Positions 284 through 41,469 of a stretch of DNA of 64,000 nt are shown in pieces (the stretch's first letter is position 1; every line of letters begins with the position of its first letter). Position numbers and translations under genes: made by a program. Source of the DNA: Bacteroidota bacterium (GTDB taxonomy: Bacteria > Bacteroidota > Bacteroidia > Flavobacteriales_D > Crocinitomicaceae); NCBI GenBank assembly GCA_016192075.1, contig JACPUU010000009.1:62001-126000 (forward strand), given 5' to 3'. The notes under the pieces are model-generated. The model was not told where the DNA came from, did no database searches, and saw only the letters and a list, made by a program, of their open reading frames with translations.

Positions 284-410
284 TACCAGGAACTACAAGC
301 TGTCGTACCCGGACTCTATTCCTGAATAAATTCATCCATTACCAGATTCATACAGATCTGTTGATTGGTTTTAGTTACATTCGGAGACACCTAAATCAAC
401 CGTATCTCTT

Positions 411-3302
411 TTGAGTTTCCATTATAAACCGGAATTTAAGCAGCTGATTTGTTTTTTTACATTTCTGCTTCTCACTTCTGCCATGGGTCAAAGCCGGCAG
501 CCGGCCTACTTTATTCTGGGAGAAGATCAGTTTAAGGGAGCCCGGATTTATGATGTTATCCAGGATCAGGACCTGAATTATTGGTTTTCTACAAACGAAG
601 GTCTCTTTTTCTATGACCATTACCGGTATCGCAAAATAGAATGCAACGCCTCCAAAAGCATCTCCTTTTTCAACTTTGTCATTAACGGCAACGGAACCAT
701 TTTTTGCAACAACCTCAACAACCAGGTTTTTGCAATTAAAAATCAAACCTGCTCCCTGCTTTATGAATTAAAGCCCGATGAAATTCAGCCCGATCTTAGT
801 CTTGCAGTCACCCCAGAAAACCACATTCTCATTGGCGGCAGAAAACTCATTCTTGCCGCTGAAAATGGCTCTGTCACTGCACGTTACGACCTCACGGGCA
901 ATTACGTTGGTGTACCATTTACGACCCGGGATCAACGTATACTCTACCCGCTTTCACAAAAAGATTCGGTTGCTGTCTGTCAAAACGGAAAATTCGAAAA
1001 ACGCAAACTGATATATACAAACACGCCACCCAAAACAAAAAAAGTACTTCAATTCTTCCGTTTTGGAGATACCGCCTATGCCATAAATATGGAAAGCAAA
1101 GATTTGTTTCTTTTCAATGAAGCAGATTACACCCTCACGGCCATTGAAACCTATGATGTGTTAAAGCGCAGCGAGTCGCTTCGGTTATACGCTACATCTG
1201 CCAATTTATGGGCTGCCGGCACCCTGCCTGGTGTTGCATCATTTGATAAAACCCTTTCAGAAAAAACCGCCGGTTTGTTTTATACCGATGTGTTTGTTTC
1301 AGATATTTATGAAGACAATGAACAAAATATACTCATCAGTACCTTTGACCATGGTGTCTATGTTATTCCCGATTTAAAAATTCCGGATCTCATCAAAGAC
1401 TTTCTGGATGAGCCGGTGGGTGTAATTACGCAAAACGATAGCCTGGGCCTGATTTTAGGAACCTCCCGGGGAAAACTGGTGACTTTCAAAAACGGAAAAT
1501 TTGACATCATTCATGAAAACGGAAAAAGATCCATTGAAGTAATTATTGACAACAACAAGGCTCCGTTTCTTATTTTTGACGATGGTTCCATCAGGGCCCT
1601 GGACAAAAAAAACGGGCGTGTTTATGGAATTATTCAGGCCTCACTGAAAGACGGTGTATTTGTCAATCCAACTACCTTTTACCTGAGTACAAACAACGGC
1701 TTAATGCGCGGTGAACGGAAAAATTCAGGGAATTTTGAAACAACCTGGGTACCCGGACTTCACTTCAGAAACTATGCTGTTGAAAAAGAGGACAGCGCTA
1801 ATACCCTTTATGTTGCCACCATTAACGGGCTCTTTGTTTTAGATAGTTTGGACCATGTCACCGAATTAAAACACGATAACCAGTCAATCTTCTCCTCTAC
1901 CCTGTGTTCAGATGGTCACTTCATTTATGCACCGTTAACCAAACCCGGAATTTTAATTCTGGAGCACGGGCAGGTTATTCGAAAAATTGAACCTGAAATT
2001 GACGGAAAACCCGTCCTGGTTTTCAAAATGAGGGTTCATAAAAAATCCATTTTTGCCCATTCTGAAGCGGGTGTCTGCCAGTTTGATATGAACGGAAAAA
2101 TGATCCGTTCGTTTACCAATTCAGGCGGCCAGGCAAACAGGCGTATTCTTGATTTTACACTGGAAGAAGATAAACTATGGATCAGTACCCCCAACGGTTT
2201 GCAAAGTATTGATCTGAACTACACCGGTAATCCCGTTCCCGTTCCATTGGTCAAAATCATACACATTTATGCCAATGATTCCGAAGTGCAGGCCGGCGCA
2301 CAAAATGAATTTGACAGTGATACCCGAAAATTTAAATTCTTTGTTTCATCACCAACGCTCCGGTACAAATCATCCATCCGCTATCACTACCAGTTAAAAG
2401 GTTACGACACCGGTTGGCTGGTCAATGATTATTTTTCAAATGAAATACTTTACAATGCCCTGGCACCCGGAGCTTATGAATTTAAGGTAAAGGCAGAAAA
2501 CCAGGGTAAATTCAGCGAAACGGTCAGTTATAAATTTTCAATTTCAGCGCCTTTTTACATTACGTGGTGGTTTATTTCACTGCTGGTTTTTTCTTTTCTC
2601 AGTATTGTTCTGCTTGTCTATAAAAAGCAACTTAACCGGCAGCGTATCAAAGCACAGCAGATAAATGAACTGAATGCATCCAAATTAACCGCTATACAAT
2701 CACAAATGAACCCGCATTTTATTTTCAATTCACTGAACTCTATACAGGATCTGATTCTGAAAGGTGATGTAGAAAATTCATACTCTTACATTACAACATT
2801 CTCAAACCTGGTGCGCAGAACGCTGAACTATTCTGACAAGGATTTTATTGATTTTGAACAGGAATTAAAATTGCTGGAACTATACCTCTCGTTAGAAAAG
2901 CTGCGATTCAAAAAAGACTTTAACTATGTAATTGAAACCAATGGTATTGTTGACATCCAGATTCCGCCTATGCTGATACAACCTTTTATCGAAAATGCCC
3001 TGGTGCATGGCCTGTTGCATAAAGAGGGTGAAAAACGACTGAAAATTTCGTTCAGATTAAACGATCACCTGATCTGCATTATCGAAGACAATGGAATTGG
3101 AAGAAATAAAGCCCGGTCCATTAAAGAAAGACAACGAACTGATCACGAATCATTTTCAGGTCAGGCCATCCGGAAACGATTTGAAATTCTGAGCAGCCAT
3201 TTTCAGGGAGAACTTGGATATACCTACGAAGATCTGGAAGAAAATGCGAAACCATCAGGCACAAGGGTCATTCTTCAGATTCCGGTTAGATACAAATATT
3301 AA
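411..3302 (+). CDS. Propeller-sensor LytS-type histidine kinase
   Basis: 963 residues from a TTG start; no ATG or GTG lies between the upstream in-frame stop at 372 and this codon. A signal-like hydrophobic stretch near residues 10-25 ends in SAMGQ. Next come about 600 residues of short repeats of the two-component-sensor propeller type, a Y_Y_Y-like Ig domain (about 620-710), one membrane helix (about 716-738, WWFISLLVFSFL), and a His_kinase domain (PF06580 type). That domain has the phospho-acceptor His near residue 769 in QMNPHFIFNSLN and an ATP-binding N-box, PPMLIQPFIENALVHG. The extracytoplasmic propeller should sense a ligand and pass phosphate to the LytTR regulator encoded next. Confidence 0.9.
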   Translation: MSFHYKPEFKQLICFFTFLLLTSAMGQSRQPAYFILGEDQFKGARIYDVIQDQDLNYWFSTNEGLFFYDHYRYRKIECNASKSISFFNFVINGNGTIFCNNLNNQVFAIKNQTCSLLYELKPDEIQPDLSLAVTPENHILIGGRKLILAAENGSVTARYDLTGNYVGVPFTTRDQRILYPLSQKDSVAVCQNGKFEKRKLIYTNTPPKTKKVLQFFRFGDTAYAINMESKDLFLFNEADYTLTAIETYDVLKRSESLRLYATSANLWAAGTLPGVASFDKTLSEKTAGLFYTDVFVSDIYEDNEQNILISTFDHGVYVIPDLKIPDLIKDFLDEPVGVITQNDSLGLILGTSRGKLVTFKNGKFDIIHENGKRSIEVIIDNNKAPFLIFDDGSIRALDKKNGRVYGIIQASLKDGVFVNPTTFYLSTNNGLMRGERKNSGNFETTWVPGLHFRNYAVEKEDSANTLYVATINGLFVLDSLDHVTELKHDNQSIFSSTLCSDGHFIYAPLTKPGILILEHGQVIRKIEPEIDGKPVLVFKMRVHKKSIFAHSEAGVCQFDMNGKMIRSFTNSGGQANRRILDFTLEEDKLWISTPNGLQSIDLNYTGNPVPVPLVKIIHIYANDSEVQAGAQNEFDSDTRKFKFFVSSPTLRYKSSIRYHYQLKGYDTGWLVNDYFSNEILYNALAPGAYEFKVKAENQGKFSETVSYKFSISAPFYITWWFISLLVFSFLSIVLLVYKKQLNRQRIKAQQINELNASKLTAIQSQMNPHFIFNSLNSIQDLILKGDVENSYSYITTFSNLVRRTLNYSDKDFIDFEQELKLLELYLSLEKLRFKKDFNYVIETNGIVDIQIPPMLIQPFIENALVHGLLHKEGEKRLKISFRLNDHLICIIEDNGIGRNKARSIKERQRTDHESFSGQAIRKRFEILSSHFQGELGYTYEDLEENAKPSGTRVILQIPVRYKY

Positions 3303-3305
3303 TCC

Positions 3306-3371
3306 ATTGCTGAAAAAACAGGGTCGTTGGTTCAAAAAATAGCATTTATTGTCTGACAATTGATAGGTTTA
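3306..3371 (+). promoter_or_regulatory. Promoter and double half-site operator of the LytTR regulator gene (copy A)
   Basis: Half-sites attgctgaa (3306-3314) and gttggttca (3326-3334) are spaced 20 bp start to start. After 29 bp comes TAGGTTTA (3364-3371), one mismatch from the Bacteroidota -7 element TAnnTTTG. The same layout occurs at 4220-4285, 5783-5849 and 7820-7886. Direct repeats two helical turns apart are typical of LytTR-domain binding sites (family knowledge), which suggests autoregulation (inference). The -7 element ends only 11 bp before the ATG, so the leader would be very short. Confidence 0.6.
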
Positions 3372-3382
3372 CAAAATTAAGC

Positions 3383-4123
3383 ATGGAAAAAATACGCGCG
3401 ATTATAGTTGACGATGAAGAAAGTGCACGGGATGTGCTTCAGAATTTACTGCTGAGGTTTTGCCCTGCGGTAGAATTAATCTGCAAATGCGAAAACCTCG
3501 TTCAGGCAGTGGAGCAAATCAAAAAACACAAGCCTGACCTCGTTTTTCTGGATATTGAAATGCCGCAGTACGCCGGTTATGAAATTGTACGGTTTTTTGA
3601 TGACGTCTATTTTGAAATGATTTTTGTAACGGCCTATGACAACCACGCTATTCGTGCGTTTGAAGTTGCTGCGGTTGATTATTTACTGAAGCCCATTGAC
3701 ATTGAGCGGCTTAAAAACTCCATTTTAAGGGTGAGTAAAAAAATCAGCAAAGGCAATGCCGGTCAGCTTAGTATTCTGAGCCAGGTGCTGGAATCCAAAT
3801 CTGTCAAAAATATAGTCATTACGGATAAGGGTGAGCAATACATCGTTCCGGTTGAAACAATCATTGCAATTGAAGCGCAGGAATCCTATTGCCAGATTTA
3901 CACGTCTTCAAAAAAATACCTGGTCAGTAAAAACCTGAAACATTTTGAGACCATTCTGGAGGGAAATAAACAATTTTTCCGCACGCACAAATCCTGGGTT
4001 ATCAACAGCAAACACATGCTGCACTATTCCAAATCAAACTTTACCATTGCGCTCACAAATAATATTATTGCCAGGCTGAGCAAATACAAAAAAGAGGAGT
4101 TTGAAAAAGCAATTCTTTCTTAG
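3383..4123 (+). CDS. LytTR-family response regulator
   Basis: 246 residues. The N-terminal receiver domain has the acidic pair in AIIVDDEES, the phospho-acceptor Asp57 in LVFLDIEMP, and the conserved Thr and Lys in VTAYDNHA and YLLKPIDIE. The C-terminal LytTR DNA-binding domain (about 145-245) contains IAIEAQESYCQIYTSSKKYL and FFRTHKSWVINSKH. It follows the propeller kinase by 80 bp and should be its partner. Its own promoter and three downstream secreted-protein promoters share a paired half-site, so it probably controls itself and that group (inference from spacing and repetition). Confidence 0.93.
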   Translation: MEKIRAIIVDDEESARDVLQNLLLRFCPAVELICKCENLVQAVEQIKKHKPDLVFLDIEMPQYAGYEIVRFFDDVYFEMIFVTAYDNHAIRAFEVAAVDYLLKPIDIERLKNSILRVSKKISKGNAGQLSILSQVLESKSVKNIVITDKGEQYIVPVETIIAIEAQESYCQIYTSSKKYLVSKNLKHFETILEGNKQFFRTHKSWVINSKHMLHYSKSNFTIALTNNIIARLSKYKKEEFEKAILS

Positions 4124-4219
4124 TATCTGAATAAACATCCGTTAATTGATCGCACCCGATCTTTTGTACTTTCCGTCTCTTTCTGCCACGGGGCAGGTTC
4201 AATAGTCCTTTCGAATGCT

Positions 4220-4285
4220 ATTCATGAGGTAAATCGGCTGTTGGTGAATTTTATCCAAAAGCACAGCTACAGGACCCTATTTTTG
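4220..4285 (+). promoter_or_regulatory. Promoter and double half-site operator (copy B)
   Basis: Half-sites attcatgag (4220-4228) and gttggtgaa (4240-4248) are 20 bp apart. After 29 bp there is an exact TAnnTTTG element, TATTTTTG (4278-4285), 24 bp before the chosen ATG at 4310. The first half-site is the weakest of the set, with 6 of 9 matches to attgctgaa. The -7 element lies inside the longer reading frame that could begin at TTG 4241, which supports the start at 4310. Confidence 0.55.
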
Positions 4286-4309
4286 GTCTATCCTAAAAAT
4301 CTTTTTATT

Positions 4310-5593
4310 ATGAAAATAAAAATAAACGTCACCCTTTTACTTTGCATTTTAGCCTTTCAACCGCTGAATGCACGAACATTTTTCAGAGCGGCCATTTTTG
4401 CAAAATCCAGTGTAGCCGCCACTACTGCCCTCGTTAGCCAATCAGTCACAGCTTCAACCTGGCTTGATGGCGAATACGCCTTTTTCAAAAGACAAGGCGA
4501 TATTCTTGTAAAACAGACGGAGAAAAGAAAACTCACGTTTACAAAAAATGAAAAAGGAGAAGTTATTGAATTTACATTGGATGACTTAACCTACAGGGGT
4601 GATGAATCCGGCAAATCTGAATTCGTTCGTTATTTTCAATCTGATAACGGATATTGTCTTTACTTTACTCCCAAAACCATCTACCAGTTTGAATCGCCGG
4701 GCTCTACTACGATAAAAGGGAGTATTGGTGCAAAAGGCAATATCGCCGCACGAACAACGATCGAAACCTTCTTAACTGAATCTGTAGTCATGCAAGAAGA
4801 AGACATTAAAAAATACAATGAGAAGATGGCCGAAGAAGCACGGCTTGCGCAACTGGAAAAGGAGAAAAAATTCTCAATCAAAGACAAAGAAGTCAGCAAA
4901 CTTGAAATAGTCAACATTGTAATTCCCGAAAAATTTGGTCACTATGTTGGATTTACCTACGACATTAAAGCAACGTTAAAAGATGGTTCCGTTTTGTCTA
5001 CAGACAACGGCGGTTTTCGGTCAGACTATGAAATTACCTATGTCGGAGGTGAATATACGGATGGAAAAATTCAGGGCACATTTATAAAGGATGATAAAAT
5101 AACAATTACGGTTGTCTCAAAATTCAATCCGGCAGATAAAGTTACCGCCGATGTTGTGGTTTTATACAACCAGGATATTTCATTCAACTACACAGCAACC
5201 GGATGGTCAAGATCAGCCGGTGAATCTGCCAATAATTTTAAAATAGAAGTAAAGCAGGTAAAACACAAAGTAAACGGTACGTTATTAAATGCTGTCCGAA
5301 TCACAAACGTAACCACGGGAACGGTGGTTGCGCAATTTAAAATTGGAGTTGATCAGACGTTACATTTTTACTGCAACGGAGGATATGGTGGTAGCGATGA
5401 TGGTTATGGAAAAGACGGTGGTAACGGCGGAAACCTGACCGTAATTAAAGATCCATCTGTGAAAACGTTCAACCTGGATTATTCCAATCGTGGCGGTAAA
5501 GCCGGTAAAGGTACAACATCCAGTTACGATGGCCGGGCCGGAAGAGACGGTGAATACATACAGGAATCTGCCGCGGTAACATTCCCTCTTTAA
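4310..5593 (+). CDS. Secreted protein with a glycine-rich C-terminal tail, unknown function
   Basis: 427 residues from ATG 4310, which gives a clear signal peptide (MKIKINVTLLLCILAFQPLNA); an in-frame TTG at 4241 is rejected because the promoter lies downstream of it. The N-terminal part contains DGEYAFFKRQGDILVKQTEK and an acidic/basic helix near 165-185 rich in E, K and A. The middle is beta-rich. The last 70 residues are glycine/aspartate-rich (GGYGGSDDGYGKDGGNGG, DGRAGRDGEY), resembling collagen-like or flexible Gly tails. No T9SS tail is seen. It lies behind a LytTR-type operator and ahead of a strong terminator. I do not recognise a family. Confidence 0.75.
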   Translation: MKIKINVTLLLCILAFQPLNARTFFRAAIFAKSSVAATTALVSQSVTASTWLDGEYAFFKRQGDILVKQTEKRKLTFTKNEKGEVIEFTLDDLTYRGDESGKSEFVRYFQSDNGYCLYFTPKTIYQFESPGSTTIKGSIGAKGNIAARTTIETFLTESVVMQEEDIKKYNEKMAEEARLAQLEKEKKFSIKDKEVSKLEIVNIVIPEKFGHYVGFTYDIKATLKDGSVLSTDNGGFRSDYEITYVGGEYTDGKIQGTFIKDDKITITVVSKFNPADKVTADVVVLYNQDISFNYTATGWSRSAGESANNFKIEVKQVKHKVNGTLLNAVRITNVTTGTVVAQFKIGVDQTLHFYCNGGYGGSDDGYGKDGGNGGNLTVIKDPSVKTFNLDYSNRGGKAGKGTTSSYDGRAGRDGEYIQESAAVTFPL

Positions 5594-5782: not shown

Positions 5783-5849
5783 ATTGCTGAATTCAATTGG
5801 TTATTGCTGAACAACAACTTTTGAAATCAAGCGCGTTGCCCTATCCTTG
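5783..5849 (+). promoter_or_regulatory. Promoter and double half-site operator (copy C)
   Basis: Two identical half-sites attgctgaa (5783-5791 and 5803-5811) are exactly 20 bp apart. After 30 bp comes TATCCTTG (5842-5849), a near match to TAnnTTTG, 23 bp before ATG 5873. The 15 bases taatccattgctgaa at 5777-5791 are also found exactly at 3300-3314 before the LytTR gene. The 29-bp block 5783-5811 reappears with two differences at 7820-7848. Confidence 0.65.
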
Positions 5850-5872
5850 CCGGATAAACAAATCAATTGATT

Positions 5873-7765
5873 ATGAAAAAAGTTATACCTGGCATAATTT
5901 TCATTAGTGCTTTTGCATTCTTTTCAAGAGCCCAATCGCCTGATCTGATATGGGCTAATGGTTCAGGCAGTGCTGATTTTGAAATGGTCCGTGATATGAT
6001 AACAGACCAGGCAGGCAATGTTATTTCTGTTGGTCAGTTCACCAATACCGTTGATTTTGATCCGGGACCCGGCATTCATAACCTGACCAGTAATGGTGCT
6101 TCAGATATTTTTATTATGAAGCAGGATTCAGATGGAAATTTGCTGTGGGCTTACAACATTGGTGATTATGACAGTGATGCGGCATACGGCGTGGGTGTTG
6201 ATGCATTAAACAACATTTATGTAACCGGTGTATTCAGATATGAGGTTGATTTCGATCCGGGTCCGGGAGATTACACGATCGGTTACTGGGGCACTAACGC
6301 CGGCCAGGTATTTTTACTCAAATTAAATTCCGATGGTGATCTTACCTGGGTGAACTGGATGGGTATAACCTCCGGAACAAGCCAGGGTCTTGTAATAACT
6401 GTTGAGCCTAACGGGCAGGCAATCATCTCAGGAACGTTCTACGGTACAGTTGATTTTGACCCGGCTGCCGGAACAACCAATCTTACAGCCAATATGACAA
6501 CCAACTACGATATCTTTCTTGCCAGTTACAACACCATGGGTGATATTAGCTGGGCTTATGGATTCGGAGGCACAAGCGGCAACAATTTTCCAGAGGATAT
6601 TACACTGGATGTAACAAACAATATTATTCTGACAGGGTCTTTTGGCGGAACCGCAGACCTTGATCCAACGGCTGGTGATCAAACCGTTGTTTCGCAGGGA
6701 TATGATGATGCATTTATTATGAAGCTGACATCAGGCGGTATGTTTCTATGGGCAAAAACCATCGGCAGTATCTGGGGAGATTATGGTTTTGCCACAGTAG
6801 CAGATTCGAACGAAGACATCTATTTTACCGGGTCATTCAGGCAGGATATTGATCTTGATCCGGGAGCGGGTACAGCCAATTATTCGATTGGGTCCAATGA
6901 AAACACATTTCTCATCAAACTTTCCTGGAACGGAACCTTTGTCTGGGCAAAGACGTTTGAAAATGGTTACAATCGTCCGCGATCGGTTGATCTGGATGAA
7001 AACGACAACCTGTATGTTGTTGGTGGCTATTCCATGACAGCTGATTTTGACCCGGGAGTTGGTGTAGTAAATCATACCAGCTCTGACAATTTTGACGATG
7101 TTTTTATGGTGAAATTGGATCCGGATGGATTATATCAGTCCTCTTTCACGTTTGGAACAACAACTGATGACCGCGGCGAAGCAATTTCTGTGGTGAGTTC
7201 AGATGAGTTTTACATAGCCGGATTTTTTAACGGTACCGTCGATTTTAATCCTGCCCCGGATACATACGCACTAACATCAAATGGAAGCACCGACAACTTT
7301 GTTGCCAGGTATGGTACATGTAGCCTGAATCTTTCTGTTTCAACATCAGGAGTTACGTTAACGGCTGATCAATCAGGAGCAACGTATGCCTGGATGGACT
7401 GCAACCTGTTCTCAACCATTGGGGTTACAACACAAAGTCTGACGCCTGCATCTGATGGTGATTATGCGGTAATTATTACGCAAGGCGGATGCAAAGACAC
7501 GTCAACCTGCTATTCAGTTGTGGGAGTTGGAATAGACGAACATTCAGCTACTTCAATTGCGCTTTTTCCAAATCCGGCACAATCAAATCTGACCATTGAA
7601 GTAACAGAACCCATTGAATTTATCCAGATCTTTAATTCAACCGGAACGCTTGTTCAAACAGAAGTAAAAAACAGTTTCTCTGTAGAGAACCTTCCGGCAG
7701 GAGTGTATGTTCTGCAGGTTCAAACCAAAAGCGGAATTTCAACTGCCCGGTTTGTAAAAGAATAA
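5873..7765 (+). CDS. T9SS-secreted SBBP-like beta-propeller protein
   Basis: 630 residues from ATG 5873, preferred over the TTG six bases upstream. The signal peptide ends near FFSRAQ. About nine repeats each carry a VDFDPGPG-type strand (TVDFDPGPG, EVDFDPGPG, TADLDPTAG, DIDLDPGAG) with GNVISVGQF-like turns, a bacterial SBBP-like propeller. Then follow an Ig-like module with paired cysteines (TYAWMDCN and GCKDTSTCY) and a type A T9SS sorting domain (ALFPNPAQSNLTIEV to the end, VYVLQVQTKSGISTARFVKE). It is expected to reach the cell surface or medium through T9SS. The tail is nearly identical to that of the next gene. Confidence 0.9.
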   Translation: MKKVIPGIIFISAFAFFSRAQSPDLIWANGSGSADFEMVRDMITDQAGNVISVGQFTNTVDFDPGPGIHNLTSNGASDIFIMKQDSDGNLLWAYNIGDYDSDAAYGVGVDALNNIYVTGVFRYEVDFDPGPGDYTIGYWGTNAGQVFLLKLNSDGDLTWVNWMGITSGTSQGLVITVEPNGQAIISGTFYGTVDFDPAAGTTNLTANMTTNYDIFLASYNTMGDISWAYGFGGTSGNNFPEDITLDVTNNIILTGSFGGTADLDPTAGDQTVVSQGYDDAFIMKLTSGGMFLWAKTIGSIWGDYGFATVADSNEDIYFTGSFRQDIDLDPGAGTANYSIGSNENTFLIKLSWNGTFVWAKTFENGYNRPRSVDLDENDNLYVVGGYSMTADFDPGVGVVNHTSSDNFDDVFMVKLDPDGLYQSSFTFGTTTDDRGEAISVVSSDEFYIAGFFNGTVDFNPAPDTYALTSNGSTDNFVARYGTCSLNLSVSTSGVTLTADQSGATYAWMDCNLFSTIGVTTQSLTPASDGDYAVIITQGGCKDTSTCYSVVGVGIDEHSATSIALFPNPAQSNLTIEVTEPIEFIQIFNSTGTLVQTEVKNSFSVENLPAGVYVLQVQTKSGISTARFVKE

Positions 7766-7810
7766 TTTTTGTTTTTGATTAGTAAGGCCCCATTCTTAAC
7801 CGGATGGGGC
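7563..7810 (+). repeat. Copy 1 of a 248-bp repeat (T9SS tail plus terminator)
   Basis: It aligns without gaps to 9367-9614, with 18 mismatches by eye. It covers the last 67 codons, the stop codon, the 3' spacer and the terminator stem. The preceding parts of the two genes are much less alike, so the tail behaves as a module that was recently copied or is kept alike by gene conversion. Confidence 0.9.
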
Positions 7811-7816
7811 TTTTTT
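7785..7816 (+). terminator. Rho-independent terminator
   Basis: Stem gccccat (7787-7793) pairs with atggggc (7804-7810) across a 10-nt loop, followed by six T. It is part of the 248-bp repeat. Confidence 0.85.
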
Positions 7817-7819
7817 GCT

Positions 7820-7886
7820 ATTACTGAATTCAATTGGCTATTGCTGAAAGTTAAAACGGTATTTACCCGGCGTTGCTCTATTCTTG
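7820..7886 (+). promoter_or_regulatory. Promoter and double half-site operator (copy D)
   Basis: Half-sites attactgaa (7820-7828) and attgctgaa (7840-7848) are 20 bp apart. After 30 bp comes TATTCTTG (7879-7886), a TAnnTTTG-like element 21 bp before ATG 7908. It starts only a few bases after the previous terminator. Confidence 0.65.
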
Positions 7887-7907
7887 TGGTATATAAACCA
7901 AACAAAT

Positions 7908-9569
7908 ATGAAAAAATTTATACTTTCCATTTTTGCAGTTCCGCTTATTTTTAATTCCGGTTATTCGCAACTTAATCTTGTGAGTAACATGAATCCGGGT
8001 GCAACAAGTTCTATACCGGATTTTCTCTACGTATTCAATGACAAAGTCTACTACACCGCCGATGATGGAACGTTTGGCGCTGAAGTTTGGGAGTACAACG
8101 GATCCGCTTCACCACAACTCGATTATGAAGTAAACACATCCGGCTCAAGTGCAACCGCCGGCCACTTCTGCGAATTCAATGGTAAGCTCTGTTTTTCAGG
8201 ATATGAGTCAGTCTATGGCAATGAGCTTTATGAATACGACGGAATAAATGCACCTGTGCGAATTTCAGATATTAATCCAGGTAGTGCCAATTCAATTCCT
8301 ACCGGGATGACCGTTTTTAACGGCAAACTTTACTTTTATGGAGTAGGCCCGGGTAATGACTATGAGTTTTATGTTTACGATGGTATTAATCCGCCATCAT
8401 TGGTAGCTAATATAAATCCAACCGGAAATTCTTTTCCCGCCGGATTCACCGAATTTAACGGAAAATTATACTTCAGTGCAAATGATGGCGTAAACGGCAT
8501 TGAACTATGGGAATATGACGGAACAAATCCACCAACCATGCTTTTGGACATTAATCCAGGTACAAATAATTCCATTCCTCAGTATTTTAAAGTTTACAAC
8601 AATAAACTTTATTTCAATGCTGACAACGGTGTTAACGGAACAGAAATATGGATGTATGACGGAACAAACCCTCCGGCTATGGTTGTTGATATGATCGCTG
8701 GTTCAGGTTCTTTTGATCCAAGATATTTTTATGTGTATAACAGCAAATTAATTTTCAGCGCCATTGATGCTGTTGCCGGAAATGAACTGTGGCAATACGA
8801 TGGAGTCAATACCCCAACACTGGTTTTTGACATCAACACCAATCCGTCCATTGGCCTTCACAATTCACATCCGCGCCATTTTATTGAATACAACAACCTG
8901 CTTTATTTCAGAGCGCAGGATGAAACACATGGAAGAGAATTGTGGGCCTGGGATGGTGTAAATAATCCTGTTTTTATTGTTGATATAAATCCTGGTACGG
9001 CACATTCATCGGAAGACTGGAATCTGAATACAACCAAACGAATGGTGGTATTAAATGGCAAATTGATTTTAGCTGCCGACGATGGTGTTGTTGGTGAAGA
9101 ACTTTTTGAATATACCGGCTGCCTGGTCAATGCGGCTGTTACCGAATCAAACATGATCATTACAGCAACGCAGTCCGGCGCTTCTTATCAGTGGATTGAC
9201 TGTAACACAAATACACCAATCTCTGGTGAAACCAATCAAAGTTTTACAGCAACCGCTGACGGTGATTATGCTGTTATTGTCGCTGACGGAGCATGCATTG
9301 ACACATCTGTTTGTACCACCATTCTGGGACTTGGTTTGAATAACGATTCGCAAAACAGGCTTGCTGTTTTTCCAAATCCGGCACAAACAAATCTGACCAT
9401 TGAAATAACAGAACCCATTGAATTTATCCGGATCTTTAATTCAACCGGAACGCTTGTTCAAACTGAAGTAAAAAACAGTTTCCCGGTAGAAAACCTTCCG
9501 GCCGGAATGTATGTTTTGCAGGTTCAAACGGAAAGCGGAATTTCAACAACACGATTTGTAAAAGAATAA
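7908..9569 (+). CDS. T9SS-secreted ELWxxDGT-type beta-propeller protein
   Basis: 553 residues from ATG 7908; the upstream in-frame TTG at 7884 lies inside the -7 element. The signal peptide ends near NSGYSQ. About eight repeats follow the pattern FNGKLYFSANDGVNGIELWE, then YDGTNPP, the ELWxxDGT family. An Ig-like module (SYQWIDCN, ACIDTSVC) and a type A T9SS sorting domain (AVFPNPAQTNLTIEI to TTRFVKE) follow. The architecture matches the preceding gene but with a different propeller family. It is likely surface-exposed or released; the ligand is unknown. Confidence 0.9.
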   Translation: MKKFILSIFAVPLIFNSGYSQLNLVSNMNPGATSSIPDFLYVFNDKVYYTADDGTFGAEVWEYNGSASPQLDYEVNTSGSSATAGHFCEFNGKLCFSGYESVYGNELYEYDGINAPVRISDINPGSANSIPTGMTVFNGKLYFYGVGPGNDYEFYVYDGINPPSLVANINPTGNSFPAGFTEFNGKLYFSANDGVNGIELWEYDGTNPPTMLLDINPGTNNSIPQYFKVYNNKLYFNADNGVNGTEIWMYDGTNPPAMVVDMIAGSGSFDPRYFYVYNSKLIFSAIDAVAGNELWQYDGVNTPTLVFDINTNPSIGLHNSHPRHFIEYNNLLYFRAQDETHGRELWAWDGVNNPVFIVDINPGTAHSSEDWNLNTTKRMVVLNGKLILAADDGVVGEELFEYTGCLVNAAVTESNMIITATQSGASYQWIDCNTNTPISGETNQSFTATADGDYAVIVADGACIDTSVCTTILGLGLNNDSQNRLAVFPNPAQTNLTIEITEPIEFIRIFNSTGTLVQTEVKNSFPVENLPAGMYVLQVQTESGISTTRFVKE

Positions 9570-9614
9570 TTTTTGCTTTTGATCAGTAAGGCCCCATTCT
9601 TAACCGGATGGGGC
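9367..9614 (+). repeat. Copy 2 of the 248-bp repeat (T9SS tail plus terminator)
   Basis: Ungapped partner of 7563-7810 at a constant offset of 1804 bp. Many differences fall at third codon positions, so the encoded tail stays functional. Confidence 0.9.
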
Positions 9615-9617
9615 CTT
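9588..9617 (+). terminator. Terminator hairpin
   Basis: Stem aaggccccat (9588-9597) pairs with atggggcctt (9608-9617), loop 10 nt, followed by an AT-rich stretch rather than a pure T run. Confidence 0.75.
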
Positions 9618-28837: not shown

Positions 28838-29848
28838 GTGAACCAGAAAATTATACGTGCACTTCATTCCCTTGCCTGGGCGCTGGCATTTATAGCCGGA
28901 TTTTCGGTTTATGCGCAATTCATTGATCCTGACACCGCCTTTGCACGCACTATTGTTAACGTGGGGTTGCTGGCCCTGCTTTTTTACACAAACATTCACC
29001 TGATAGCCCGCTATTATGAGCACGGCAGAAAAGAATACTATTACCTGCTAAGCACGTTGCTTGTGCTGTTTATCATGGCTATTCGCATAACACTGAATTA
29101 CGTTTTTGCAACCTACACCGATTCAGCCACCATTCCTGAAAAACCCATCGTCTATATTGCTGTCACCTGCATTACATCAATCATTATCTACATTCTGAGC
29201 AGCCTGCTGGCGGTTATGCAAAACCGAAACAAAGCTGAAAAAAGGCATCTTGAACAGCTGAATCAATTGCAGCAATCACAGCTTAAATTTTTAAAGGCAC
29301 AAATTAATCCGCACTTTTTGTTTAATACACTCAACAATATTTATGCGCTTGTTTTAGCAAAATCTGACCGGGCTCCTGAAATGCTGGTCAAACTTTCAGA
29401 ACTGTTGCGGTATGCCATTTACCAGGAACCGGATTCAAACGTAAATCTGAAAAAGGAACTGGAACAGGTTTCAAAATACATTGAATTATTTCGCATGCGC
29501 AGCAAACAACCGCTGCCTATACTGTGGGTGCAGGCACTGGATGATGAAGAGTACCAGATTCCGCCCATGATGCTGATCAGCCTTGTTGAAAATGCCTTTA
29601 AACACGGTGATATTGCAGAAAACGCGAATGCCACGTGCCACTTTAACCTTGAAACACGAAAAGGCGTGCTGCATTTTTCAGCCGAAAATTCATTCAACCC
29701 AAACAAAGTAAAAGACACCACCCGTGGAATAGGCTTGAAAAACCTGGAAGAAACCCTGTCTATTCTATACCCCGGAAATTTTGAGTTTAAACATGTTGCA
29801 AAAAACGGTATTTTTAGAATTGACCTTAAAATAATGCATGGCCATTAA
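28838..29848 (+). CDS. LytS-type sensor histidine kinase
   Basis: 336 residues from GTG 28838. Four N-terminal membrane helices (about 8-140) are followed by a short coiled coil (KAEKRHLEQLNQLQQSQLK) and a His_kinase domain with phospho-acceptor His in QINPHFLFNTLNNIY and N-box IPPMMLISLVENAFKHGD. There is no extracytoplasmic sensor domain, so the signal is probably felt in the membrane. It overlaps the next gene by 11 bp. Confidence 0.92.
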   Translation: MNQKIIRALHSLAWALAFIAGFSVYAQFIDPDTAFARTIVNVGLLALLFYTNIHLIARYYEHGRKEYYYLLSTLLVLFIMAIRITLNYVFATYTDSATIPEKPIVYIAVTCITSIIIYILSSLLAVMQNRNKAEKRHLEQLNQLQQSQLKFLKAQINPHFLFNTLNNIYALVLAKSDRAPEMLVKLSELLRYAIYQEPDSNVNLKKELEQVSKYIELFRMRSKQPLPILWVQALDDEEYQIPPMMLISLVENAFKHGDIAENANATCHFNLETRKGVLHFSAENSFNPNKVKDTTRGIGLKNLEETLSILYPGNFEFKHVAKNGIFRIDLKIMHGH

Positions 29849-30566
29849 AACAATTATTGTTGATGATGAGTATTTGGGTATTCAGGTGCTGGAAAATTTT
29901 GTTTCAAAAATTCCGACCCTGAACCTGTGCGGAACATTTGAAAATCCGCTGGAAGCCATTGACTATATTCAGCGAAACCCGGTTGACCTGATTTTTCTGG
30001 ATATTCAAATGCCGCAAATCAGCGGCACCAGCTTTTTAAAATCATTGTCAAAACCACCGCTTGTTGTTTTTACCACCGCCTATTCTGAGTACGCTGTTGA
30101 AGCATTTGACCTCAACGTTGTGGATTACCTGTTAAAGCCCATTCCGTTCGAACGCTTTTTGAAAACCATCAATAAAATCAATGACATTTTTCAGCGCGGA
30201 AACAATTCACCTGATCTCAAAAAAACGGAAACAGGTACACTGACGGTTAAATCAGACGGGGCCCTGTACAAAATACCATTCGCTGAAATACGCTACATTG
30301 AAAGTGACCGGGAATATGTTAAACTGTTTACTCAAAACAAACGGTATTATTACCTTGAAACCATGAAAAACCTGGAAGAGTCTTTACCCCCTGACCAGTT
30401 TATACGGGTTCACAAATCATACATTGTTTCAAAGGCCTGTGTCCGGTCTATTGACGGCAACCAGCTTGACCTGGGAGGTGTTCAGATACCGGTAAGCCGG
30501 GAAAAAAGAACGGATATTATAACGGCATTATTCGGAAAACCAACCGGTAAAAAACCGCAGAATTAA
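29838..30566 (+). CDS. LytTR-family response regulator
   Basis: 242 residues. Receiver domain: TIIVDDEYL, phospho-acceptor Asp55 in LIFLDIQMP, TTAYSEYA and YLLKPIPFE. LytTR domain (about 135-235): IRYIESDREYVKLFTQNKRYYYLETMKNLEESL and FIRVHKSYIV. It is the partner of the overlapping kinase. No TTGCTGAA-type paired site was seen before this operon, so its target site probably differs from that of the first LytTR pair. Confidence 0.92.
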   Translation: MAIKTIIVDDEYLGIQVLENFVSKIPTLNLCGTFENPLEAIDYIQRNPVDLIFLDIQMPQISGTSFLKSLSKPPLVVFTTAYSEYAVEAFDLNVVDYLLKPIPFERFLKTINKINDIFQRGNNSPDLKKTETGTLTVKSDGALYKIPFAEIRYIESDREYVKLFTQNKRYYYLETMKNLEESLPPDQFIRVHKSYIVSKACVRSIDGNQLDLGGVQIPVSREKRTDIITALFGKPTGKKPQN

Positions 30567-32417: not shown

Positions 32418-33080
32418 TTATAACTGGCTTACCCTGATTTTTTGAACAATCCGTTTTCCATTTCCGGCAACTACTTCAACGAAATAAACGCCCTCTGGAA
32501 AATTAATCAACGATACAGAACTAATGGCTTCAAGTTTCATTAACAAAACCAATTTGCCGGAAATATCGTAAACACGAAGCGATGCCCCTGCGTTTTCATT
32601 TTCAAGAAATACAGTTACCACATTAAGCGAAAAATTAATCTTGGCCCAGGGCTGAACTTCAGTTACAGTCTCTTTTCCTGCCTCATATACAAACGTCAGC
32701 GTATCATTAATTTCCGGATGAACTTTGTCAAATATCCGATAACGAATCTGCCCGCTTCCGGCAACATCATTTGTTCCAAGATTCGTTGCAATGTAAGCCT
32801 GACCTCCGGGCGACACTTCACCAAAAATGCCATCGTCAGGGACCCCTGGGTAACAAATTATATTTGTACAGCCGGAAACAGACCATTCCTGAGGCAACGT
32901 ATTTTCAATCAACTCAAAACTTAATGAAATTGTTTCTGCACCTTCATTGGTTATAAAGATATATTCTGTGTCGTAATACGTCAGAGAAACGCTGTTTTCT
33001 GACTGCATAGCCGGACTGAAAGAAATACTCTGTGACAGAGCAAAATCAGATATAGAACAAATCAGAAGTAAAAATCTCAT
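32418..33080 (-). CDS. Small T9SS-sorted secreted protein
   Basis: 220 residues with a signal peptide ending near DFALSQ. A beta-sandwich middle contains a Cys pair (SGCTNIICYPG), then comes a type A T9SS tail: ASLRVYDISGKLVLLMKLEAI, FPEGVYFVEVVAGNGKRIVQKIRVSQL. It lies downstream of the ECF sigma/anti-sigma genes, which may control it. Confidence 0.78.
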   Translation of the reverse strand: MRFLLLICSISDFALSQSISFSPAMQSENSVSLTYYDTEYIFITNEGAETISLSFELIENTLPQEWSVSGCTNIICYPGVPDDGIFGEVSPGGQAYIATNLGTNDVAGSGQIRYRIFDKVHPEINDTLTFVYEAGKETVTEVQPWAKINFSLNVVTVFLENENAGASLRVYDISGKLVLLMKLEAISSVSLINFPEGVYFVEVVAGNGKRIVQKIRVSQL

Positions 33081-40848: not shown

Positions 40849-41469
40849 ATGAGGCACTTAATTTTTATGCTTATTTCTATAACATTTCTTTCGCTCATTG
40901 GCGCAAAAAAGACAGATCAACAAACGACATCCGTTTCACCGGCAGAGATTGGAGATACTGTATTGAACTTCACAGCAAAAGATCAGTATGATTCACTGTT
41001 TAATTTAGATTTAGTTTTAAAGAATACACCTATCGTATTGGTCTTTTATCGGGGACAGTGGTGCCCTTATTGCAATAAACATCTCAGTGAACTGCAAGAC
41101 AGTTTAGAATTAGTTATTCAGCGTGGAGCGACGGTTATAGCTATATCACCTGAAAAACCCGAACAACTGATGGCAATGGAAAAGAAGTCCGGCACAACCT
41201 TCACGCTGCTCTATGATGAGAACTATAAAATTGCAAAAATGTTCGGGGTTTCATTTATTCCGGATGAAACTACAGTTAAAAAGTACAACACTTTTCTGAA
41301 TGCAGATTTAAATTCGGCACACGAAAATTCCGGAACAATAGAATTGCCTGTTCCCGCAACATATATCATTAATCAGGATCATACAATTCGCTGGAGGCAT
41401 TATGACCCTGATTATAAAAAGCGGGCATCGGTTAAGGATATTCTGGACAATTTACCCATCAAACCTTAG
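40849..41469 (+). CDS. Exported peroxiredoxin-like (AhpC/TSA) protein
   Basis: 206 residues from ATG 40849. The signal-like N-terminus (MRHLIFMLISITFLSLIGA) is followed by the Prx-like2 fold: VLVFYRGQWCPYCNKHLSELQ with Cys-x-x-Cys, AISPEKPEQLMAMEKKSGTTFTLLYDENYKIAKMFGV, PVPATYIINQDHTIRWRH. It probably reduces peroxides in the periplasm. It heads a plus-strand run; its promoter box matches that of the Grx-TrxR fusion. Confidence 0.85.
   Translation: MRHLIFMLISITFLSLIGAKKTDQQTTSVSPAEIGDTVLNFTAKDQYDSLFNLDLVLKNTPIVLVFYRGQWCPYCNKHLSELQDSLELVIQRGATVIAISPEKPEQLMAMEKKSGTTFTLLYDENYKIAKMFGVSFIPDETTVKKYNTFLNADLNSAHENSGTIELPVPATYIINQDHTIRWRHYDPDYKKRASVKDILDNLPIKP

Follow-up and report, generated by a model that had tools for sequence, protein, structure and literature searches.

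Gene content of the locus

The genes described here encode two neighbouring proteins with C-terminal sorting tails of the type IX secretion system (T9SS) and lie downstream of genes for a LytTR-type two-component system in a Bacteroidota bacterium of the family Crocinitomicaceae (contig JACPUU010000009.1). The window, meaning the whole 64,000-nucleotide stretch that was analysed, corresponds to G000:C9:62001-126000 of a 4.65 Mb genome in 22 contigs (G000), which is the only genome in its genus, so that comparison within the genus was impossible. The closest named relatives of the tail region were Flavobacteriales and Fluviicola metagenome bins. A histidine kinase gene adjoins a gene for a Response_reg-LytTR protein, the arrangement of a LytTR two-component system, and the two are followed on the same strand by a glycine-rich gene without a T9SS tail (gene 0) and by the two tail-bearing genes (genes 1 and 2; Table 1).

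Gene 1 matched the SBBP-type propeller model NF047494 with 84.8 bits (E 4.9e-24), which is under the model cut-off of 400, and Pfam SBBP (PF06739) was not among its matches at E<=1. Gene 2 passed the ELWxxDGT model TIGR04534 with 259.8 bits against a cut-off of 65, in 7 stretches, so that the propellers of two repeat families named in the initial annotation were recovered, that of gene 1 below cut-off. Both proteins begin with MKK and a hydrophobic stretch, read by eye only, and both carry a tail above the curated cut-offs of PF18962 (42.5 and 41.7 bits for genes 1 and 2; cut-off 27) and TIGR04183 (44.7 and 46.6 bits; cut-off 23); in the signal-peptide-like start and the type A tail they resemble known T9SS type A cargo. 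From the established role of the tail family, the proteins would be expected to undergo type IX export and then display or release. The initial label of sensor bodies was not supported: the bodies are predicted to be secreted cargo, and the sensing role falls to the kinase whose gene lies upstream. The best family matches over most of gene 1 were at most 42% identical, and gene 0 shared 28% identity over 255 aa with the gene that follows the regulator ortholog of genome G004 (L302).

Table 1 Position and basis of the features of the regulator locus (ORF, open reading frame)
Feature	Position	Strand	Basis
Weak operator-like match, 64 nt 5' of the listed kinase ORF start	318-346	+	Matrix scan, 9.2 bits; below noise match of 12.1, not counted among the sites
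Sensor histidine kinase: Reg_prop, Y_Y_Y and His_kinase domains	411-3302	+	Pfam scan
Intermediate operator-like site, 48 nt 5' of regulator ATG	3306-3334	+	Matrix scan, 16.1 bits, 4th in window
Response regulator: Response_reg and LytTR DNA-binding domain	3383-4123	+	Pfam scan
Putative operator of gene 0, 61 nt 5' of ATG	4220-4248	+	21/29 to 5' block; matrix 28.0 bits
Gene 0: Gly-rich protein, signal-peptide-like start, no T9SS tail	4310-5593	+	
Putative operator of gene 1, 61 nt 5' of ATG; 9-bp direct repeat ATTGCTGAA, 11 nt between	5783-5811	+	
Leader element common to genes 1 and 2, gene 1 copy GCGTTGCCCTATCCTTG	5833-5849	+	Local alignment, 0/2000 shuffles
Gene 1: signal-peptide-like start, then SBBP-like propeller, Ig-like module (~7330-7556) and T9SS type A tail	5873-7765	+	
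Copied block, first copy: sorting tail, stop codon and terminator hairpin (~7786-7810, by eye)	7563-7810	+	
Putative operator of gene 2, 59 nt 5' of ATG; begins 10 nt past the copied block's likely end	7820-7848	+	
Leader element common to genes 1 and 2, gene 2 copy GCGTTGCTCTATTCTTG	7870-7886	+	
Gene 2: signal-peptide-like start, then ELWxxDGT propeller, Ig-like module and T9SS type A tail	7908-9569	+	
Copied block, second copy	9367-9614	+	

The direct-repeat site upstream of genes 0, 1 and 2

The 29-bp blocks upstream of genes 1 and 2 were identical at 27 of 29 positions, in agreement with the two differences first reported, and consist of a 9-bp direct repeat, RTTnnTRAA, with 11 nt between the halves and a period of 20. 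A third copy precedes gene 0 and agrees at 21 of 29 positions, a level reached by 0/2000 Markov sequences, and the three copies stand 59 to 61 nt before the respective ATG. A site matrix was derived from 20 sites of other genomes, hand-picked before regulator-adjacent or long secreted-type genes and excluding those of the window. On both strands of the 64-kb window it ranked the sites of gene 2 (7820; 35.6 bits), gene 1 (5783; 33.3 bits) and gene 0 (4220; 28.0 bits) highest, followed by the matches at 3306 (16.1 bits), at 41400 on the minus strand (12.1 bits) and at 318 (9.2 bits, below noise). Within 368 kb around the T9SS genes of this genome, a site with at most 3 mismatches placed 48-72 nt before an ATG was found for genes 0, 1 and 2 only. 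Dispersal of the block through the genome was ruled out, since a search for the strict pattern that allowed 3 mismatches gave two sites. The match at 3306 would fit self-regulation of the regulator gene; in the related genomes G063 and G185 a site lies on the upstream side of the regulator gene, 43 and 65 nt away. The leader element shared by genes 1 and 2 resembles a Bacteroidota -7 box.

Regulator orthologs (E<=1e-40) were present in 79 of 200 family genomes, the present genome included. Downstream DNA was fetched for 20 of the 29 listed regulator loci of relatives (L258-L274, L282, L284 and L286); L275-L281, L283 and L285 were omitted, several of them for a different-looking neighbouring gene order. 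A T9SS-tail gene on the same strand downstream of the regulator was found at 11 of the 20 loci, with 16 tails. The direct repeat precedes most first genes after the regulator, usually 55-65 nt from the ATG, and at 36 and 24 nt from the chosen start codon in L296 and L297; a doubtful repeat was seen before the first gene of L299, and none before the first gene of L303, L304 and L306. The SBBP gene after the regulator in genome G123 (L289, oriented 855-4640) consists of two in-line ORFs of 628 and 633 aa, possibly one stop-interrupted gene.

A pattern search of the 200 family genomes with at most 1 mismatch returned 56 sites, spread over 41 genomes; the reversed pattern gave 13. Nine of the 12 exact sites and 8 of the 44 one-mismatch sites lay within 6 kb of a regulator ortholog, distances being measured against 22 of the regulator places. 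Of the three exact sites remote from the regulator, one precedes an SBBP gene (G069) and the others precede two long genes that are related to each other and have a signal-peptide-like start (G079 and G087), at 59-60 nt; two one-mismatch sites were located just upstream of SBBP matches at G069:C1:1506036 and G117:C21:19631. An ORF of >300 aa beginning 54-65 nt downstream was found at 8 of the 29 site loci fetched, and many of the remaining one-mismatch sites, which have no such ORF, may be due to chance.

The repeat pair, conserved, about two helical turns apart and upstream of the presumed promoter, has the layout of a LytTR operator. Because it lies downstream of the kinase and regulator genes and recurs beside that regulator in relatives, it is probably the operator of the adjoining LytTR regulator. 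The block stands upstream of the starts of two neighbours that also share their 3' ends, as would a mere core promoter or a remnant of a copied cassette that has nothing to do with the regulator; such an origin is improbable, however, since the block is also found before gene 0, which is tailless and has an unrelated body, recurs in conserved form next to regulator orthologs of other genera and ahead of distant SBBP genes, and is absent upstream of the other T9SS genes examined in this genome. The 5' blocks can be alike because they are functional, given that the site also precedes the unrelated gene at 4310 and numerous genes in other species, and the block is therefore not supported as a trace of copying.

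The likeness to LytTR systems, as these are presented in PMC6193735, consists in the Response_reg-LytTR protein and in a direct-repeat pair with 11 bp between, upstream of a presumed promoter. The present system differs in its Reg_prop/Y_Y_Y pair in Flavobacteriales-like genomes and in its likely targets, secreted T9SS cargo. Elsewhere in the window, a second LytTR gene (29838-30566; LytTR at 30264-30518) lies near a T9SS tail (32436-32624, minus strand, within 32418-33080).

A shared block of tail, stop codon and terminator

On the diagonal at offset 1804 between genes 1 and 2, the maximum-likelihood segment comprised 248 nt with 18 differences (7563-7810 against 9367-9614), the same numbers as those given for an ungapped 3' block in the initial annotation; extended to 7557-7816, the block covers 260 nt with 22 differences (92%). 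As also stated there, it spans the tail, stop codon and terminator, running from the last codons before FPNPA through the entire sorting tail to the terminator hairpin (by eye). The edges within 2 log units are 7557-7565 on the left, at the FPNPA border of the sorting tail, and 7808-7816 on the right, at the hairpin. The left edge is abrupt, with 16, 12, then 27 and 29 matches per 30 nt, and a step (lnL -114.9) beat every ramp tried (60-nt, -120.2; 150-nt, -125.3). Chance similarity was excluded by a blastn E of ~1e-102 over the whole genome. The search for further copies proposed earlier was run in this genome and returned these two only, which rules out a repeat spread through the genome. 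Comparison of the modules between the copies set the tail block at 92% against the Ig-like modules at 57% DNA identity; the latter pair ranks 14 of 11,026, and inclusion of the Ig module in the copied tract was thereby ruled out. The block is a sharp-edged tract inside otherwise divergent genes, the signature of gene conversion or segmental copying. A block unique to the two genes, with identity decaying smoothly into the propeller region, had been named as grounds for rejecting copying: the block is unique in its own genome, and copying is retained because identity drops as a step.

For comparison with other tails of this genome, the best 150 of 219 candidates were scored and one at a contig end (C8:146660) was dropped, leaving 149. 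The tails of genes 1 and 2 were the most similar of all pairs, at 92% over 254 nt. The second-ranked pair (C5:243266/246061) also consists of same-strand neighbours with unrelated bodies, at 74% over 240 nt, and the third-ranked pair reached 66% over 157 nt; same-strand neighbouring tail pairs within 4 kb numbered 23. In a separate view of the C5 pair (L163, G000:C5:241766-246894) the alignment gave 77% over 207 nt and ended at the stop codon. Purifying selection alone, acting through shared recognition machinery and involving no copying, is a very improbable explanation of the similarity. The coding part of the block holds 18 differences in 209 positions (8, 1 and 9 at codon positions 1, 2 and 3), with 8 synonymous and 8 nonsynonymous changed codons, and the excess of synonymous over nonsynonymous change (NG86 dN 0.053, dS 0.24) speaks for selection. 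The stretch from stop codon to terminator is, however, about as similar, with 4 differences in 51 positions of the untranslated region (UTR), the edges are steps, and the remaining tails of the genome, which that machinery has to recognise too, do not exceed the third-ranked value except in the C5 pair.

At the 5' end, weak similarity runs on from the block through the start codon into the signal-peptide-like start (5783-5888 against 7820-7923, 71.6%, E 1e-6), and the leader is identical at 36 of 56 positions as against 43 of 45 in the 3' UTR (Fisher p 1.6e-4), so that a single event of uniform age does not seem to have produced both ends. The view that building blocks were copied or exchanged at both ends is therefore partly supported: the observation itself was confirmed and copying of tail and terminator stands, given the sharp edges, the differing bodies and the older C5 case, and the 5' block is not supported as evidence of it. 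In this genome the stretch from tail to terminator of one cassette was copied onto the adjacent cassette, the left edge being sharp where body and tail meet, either by tandem duplication of the cassette and subsequent replacement of a body, or as a later gene-conversion tract. That the repeat ends abut (7810-7816 and 7820) points to an origin by duplication, and the unequal divergence of leader and 3' UTR favours a later event at the 3' end.

Plain tandem duplication of the whole cassette, with one or both bodies later replaced or altered past recognition and no separate exchange of ends, is a possible but less likely account. The end of the 3' repeat abuts the start of the 5' repeat as a tandem junction predicts, and the 5' similarity extends through leader, start codon and signal-peptide-like start; yet a single-age event would need a later 3' conversion to produce the difference between leader and 3' UTR. 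The Ig module beside the tail is, moreover, hardly closer between genes 1 and 2 (score 208) than between gene 2 and an unrelated locus (202), and the true duplicates of this genome (C18:85-89k, C2:53-56k and C12:551-552k), in which the bodies are related, show tails at merely 51-54%.

Three further tail searches in related genomes took the best 150 of 235, 208 and 234 candidates; weaker tails are missing from the sets because only the best 150 candidates were scored per search. Across genomes G004, G069 and G095, tails were similar (>=0.60) in 14 of 67 adjacent same-strand pairs compared, and as 12 of these 14 were whole-gene duplicates, tail copying from neighbour to neighbour as a general habit was borne out in part only. 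The other two, with unrelated or strongly diverged bodies, were G069 857172/858171 and G095 3969820/3972786, the latter with a 223-nt tail block at 86% and bodies 26% alike over the stretch compared. The G095 locus (L253, G095:C1:3969120-3978227) holds three neighbouring genes beside an apparent LytTR-type regulator gene (by eye), one body being only distantly alike, and is a possible second regulator-linked tail set. Five T9SS genes each, ~1.2 kb apart, were seen at G000:C12:504170-509170 and G004:C1:608439-613564, possibly a conserved array. A T9SS-type tail is also encoded by L187 (CALPIT020000090.1), titled as a Streptomyces griseus bin, a label that is probably wrong.

Association of the tail lineage with the regulator

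The gene 2 copy aside, the eight tails nearest to that of gene 1 were all regulator-adjacent tails of other genomes, ahead of 147 background tails of its own genome and 122 of relatives, and the first seven nearest to the gene 2 tail were likewise regulator-adjacent. In a FastTree tree of 287 tails, for which the tail set was near-complete for G000 only, 13 of the 18 regulator-adjacent tails formed one group with no other row (support 89), and the regulator-adjacency label required 6 changes as against 15-18 in 200 shuffles. The bodies on these 13 tails were SBBP (gene 1, L290), ELWxxDGT (gene 2, L292), YCF48/BNR (twice in L293, and L299), LRR (L296, L304), HYR plus laminin G (L296, L303), a weak Fib_succ match (L299) and one unnamed (L291). 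At the sequence level, the tail lineage goes with the regulator and not with the body across related genomes; in this, and in the near-identity of neighbouring tails in DNA, the locus differs from T9SS type A cargo as otherwise known.

The explanation favoured here, with a probability of about three in four, is that the locus is a switch-controlled secreted cassette, in which the operator and tail are resident, the body is replaceable and the tail-terminator block is copied between neighbours. The LytTR regulator would most likely bind the direct-repeat site and so control genes 0, 1 and 2, and the tail lineage would stay with the regulator while the body in front is replaced.

Several observations weigh against this explanation. 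When 36 tails were added to the tree (323 rows), the 13-row group (support 80) consisted of 12 regulator-adjacent tails and one that is not, that of L030, an SBBP gene situated where a contig ends, and the label required 8 changes. Five regulator-adjacent tails (L288, three in L289, and L297) lay outside the group, and background tails from genus g19 were few, though g19 supplied 8 of the 13 grouped tails. Nine of the 20 loci of relatives had no regulator-adjacent tail gene; a Gly-rich gene like gene 0 followed the regulator in three of these nine (L300-L302), and L305 had one on the opposite strand. The site consensus was drawn partly from counted loci, as 6 of the 9 exact near-regulator sites belonged to the set already known and 3 (G022, and G185 twice) lay outside it. 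Finally, the repeats here stand 11 nt apart, and the direct repeats of LytTR systems, which lie close upstream of the -35 element, are mostly 12 bp and in a minority 11 or 13 bp apart (PMC6193735).

Within the cassette explanation, the tail may follow the regulator only because the cassettes were inherited together at a single site of the chromosome, recombination at the edge of the tail having exchanged the bodies and the tail having no signalling part. This is a sub-question of the cassette explanation and not an alternative to it, and it is considered rather more likely than not: it needs no new function and is consistent with all data here, and nothing decisive stands against it, though taken alone it leaves unexplained that the resident part is the tail and not the Ig module. 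A role of the resident tail as cognate signal of the adjoining kinase is unlikely, though conceivable; kinase, operator and tail would then be a coevolving trio reporting cargo export, for example with the Reg_prop/Y_Y_Y domain sensing unexported or cleaved tails, so that any secreted body could be plugged in. If true, this would account for the persistence of the tail lineage with the regulator across genera despite the change of body.

A tail-bearing protein is linked with a two-component system also in Porphyromonas gingivalis, where, according to PMC7712824, the T9SS C-terminal-domain protein PorA acts upstream of PorXY and SigP; direct PorA-PorY interaction was not seen in the preliminary work described there, and PorV bound the tail. 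That system comprises PorX/PorY and an extracytoplasmic function (ECF) sigma factor (PMC7712824), unlike the LytTR regulator adjoining its cargo here, for which tail signalling is hypothetical. Domain rearrangement and allelic exchange of modules are reported in PMC5266723 for P. gingivalis surface proteins, which likewise are modular, have a conserved C-terminal domain in common and show module recombination. There the exchange is among genes and strains of one species, whereas in the present case a regulator-linked tail recurs on unrelated bodies in different genera. No description of such a locus type was found in the open-access collection searched, judged by title and the start of the abstract.

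The searched genomes of this group each carry at least 150 T9SS cargo genes. To our knowledge, their assignment to regulators is largely lacking. The present locus allows a regulator to be read from the DNA along with its likely operator and targets, and in other genomes the operator leads to SBBP genes that are not linked to the regulator. Retention of the operator and export tail with exchange of the exposed body could provide a concrete route by which surface proteins change.

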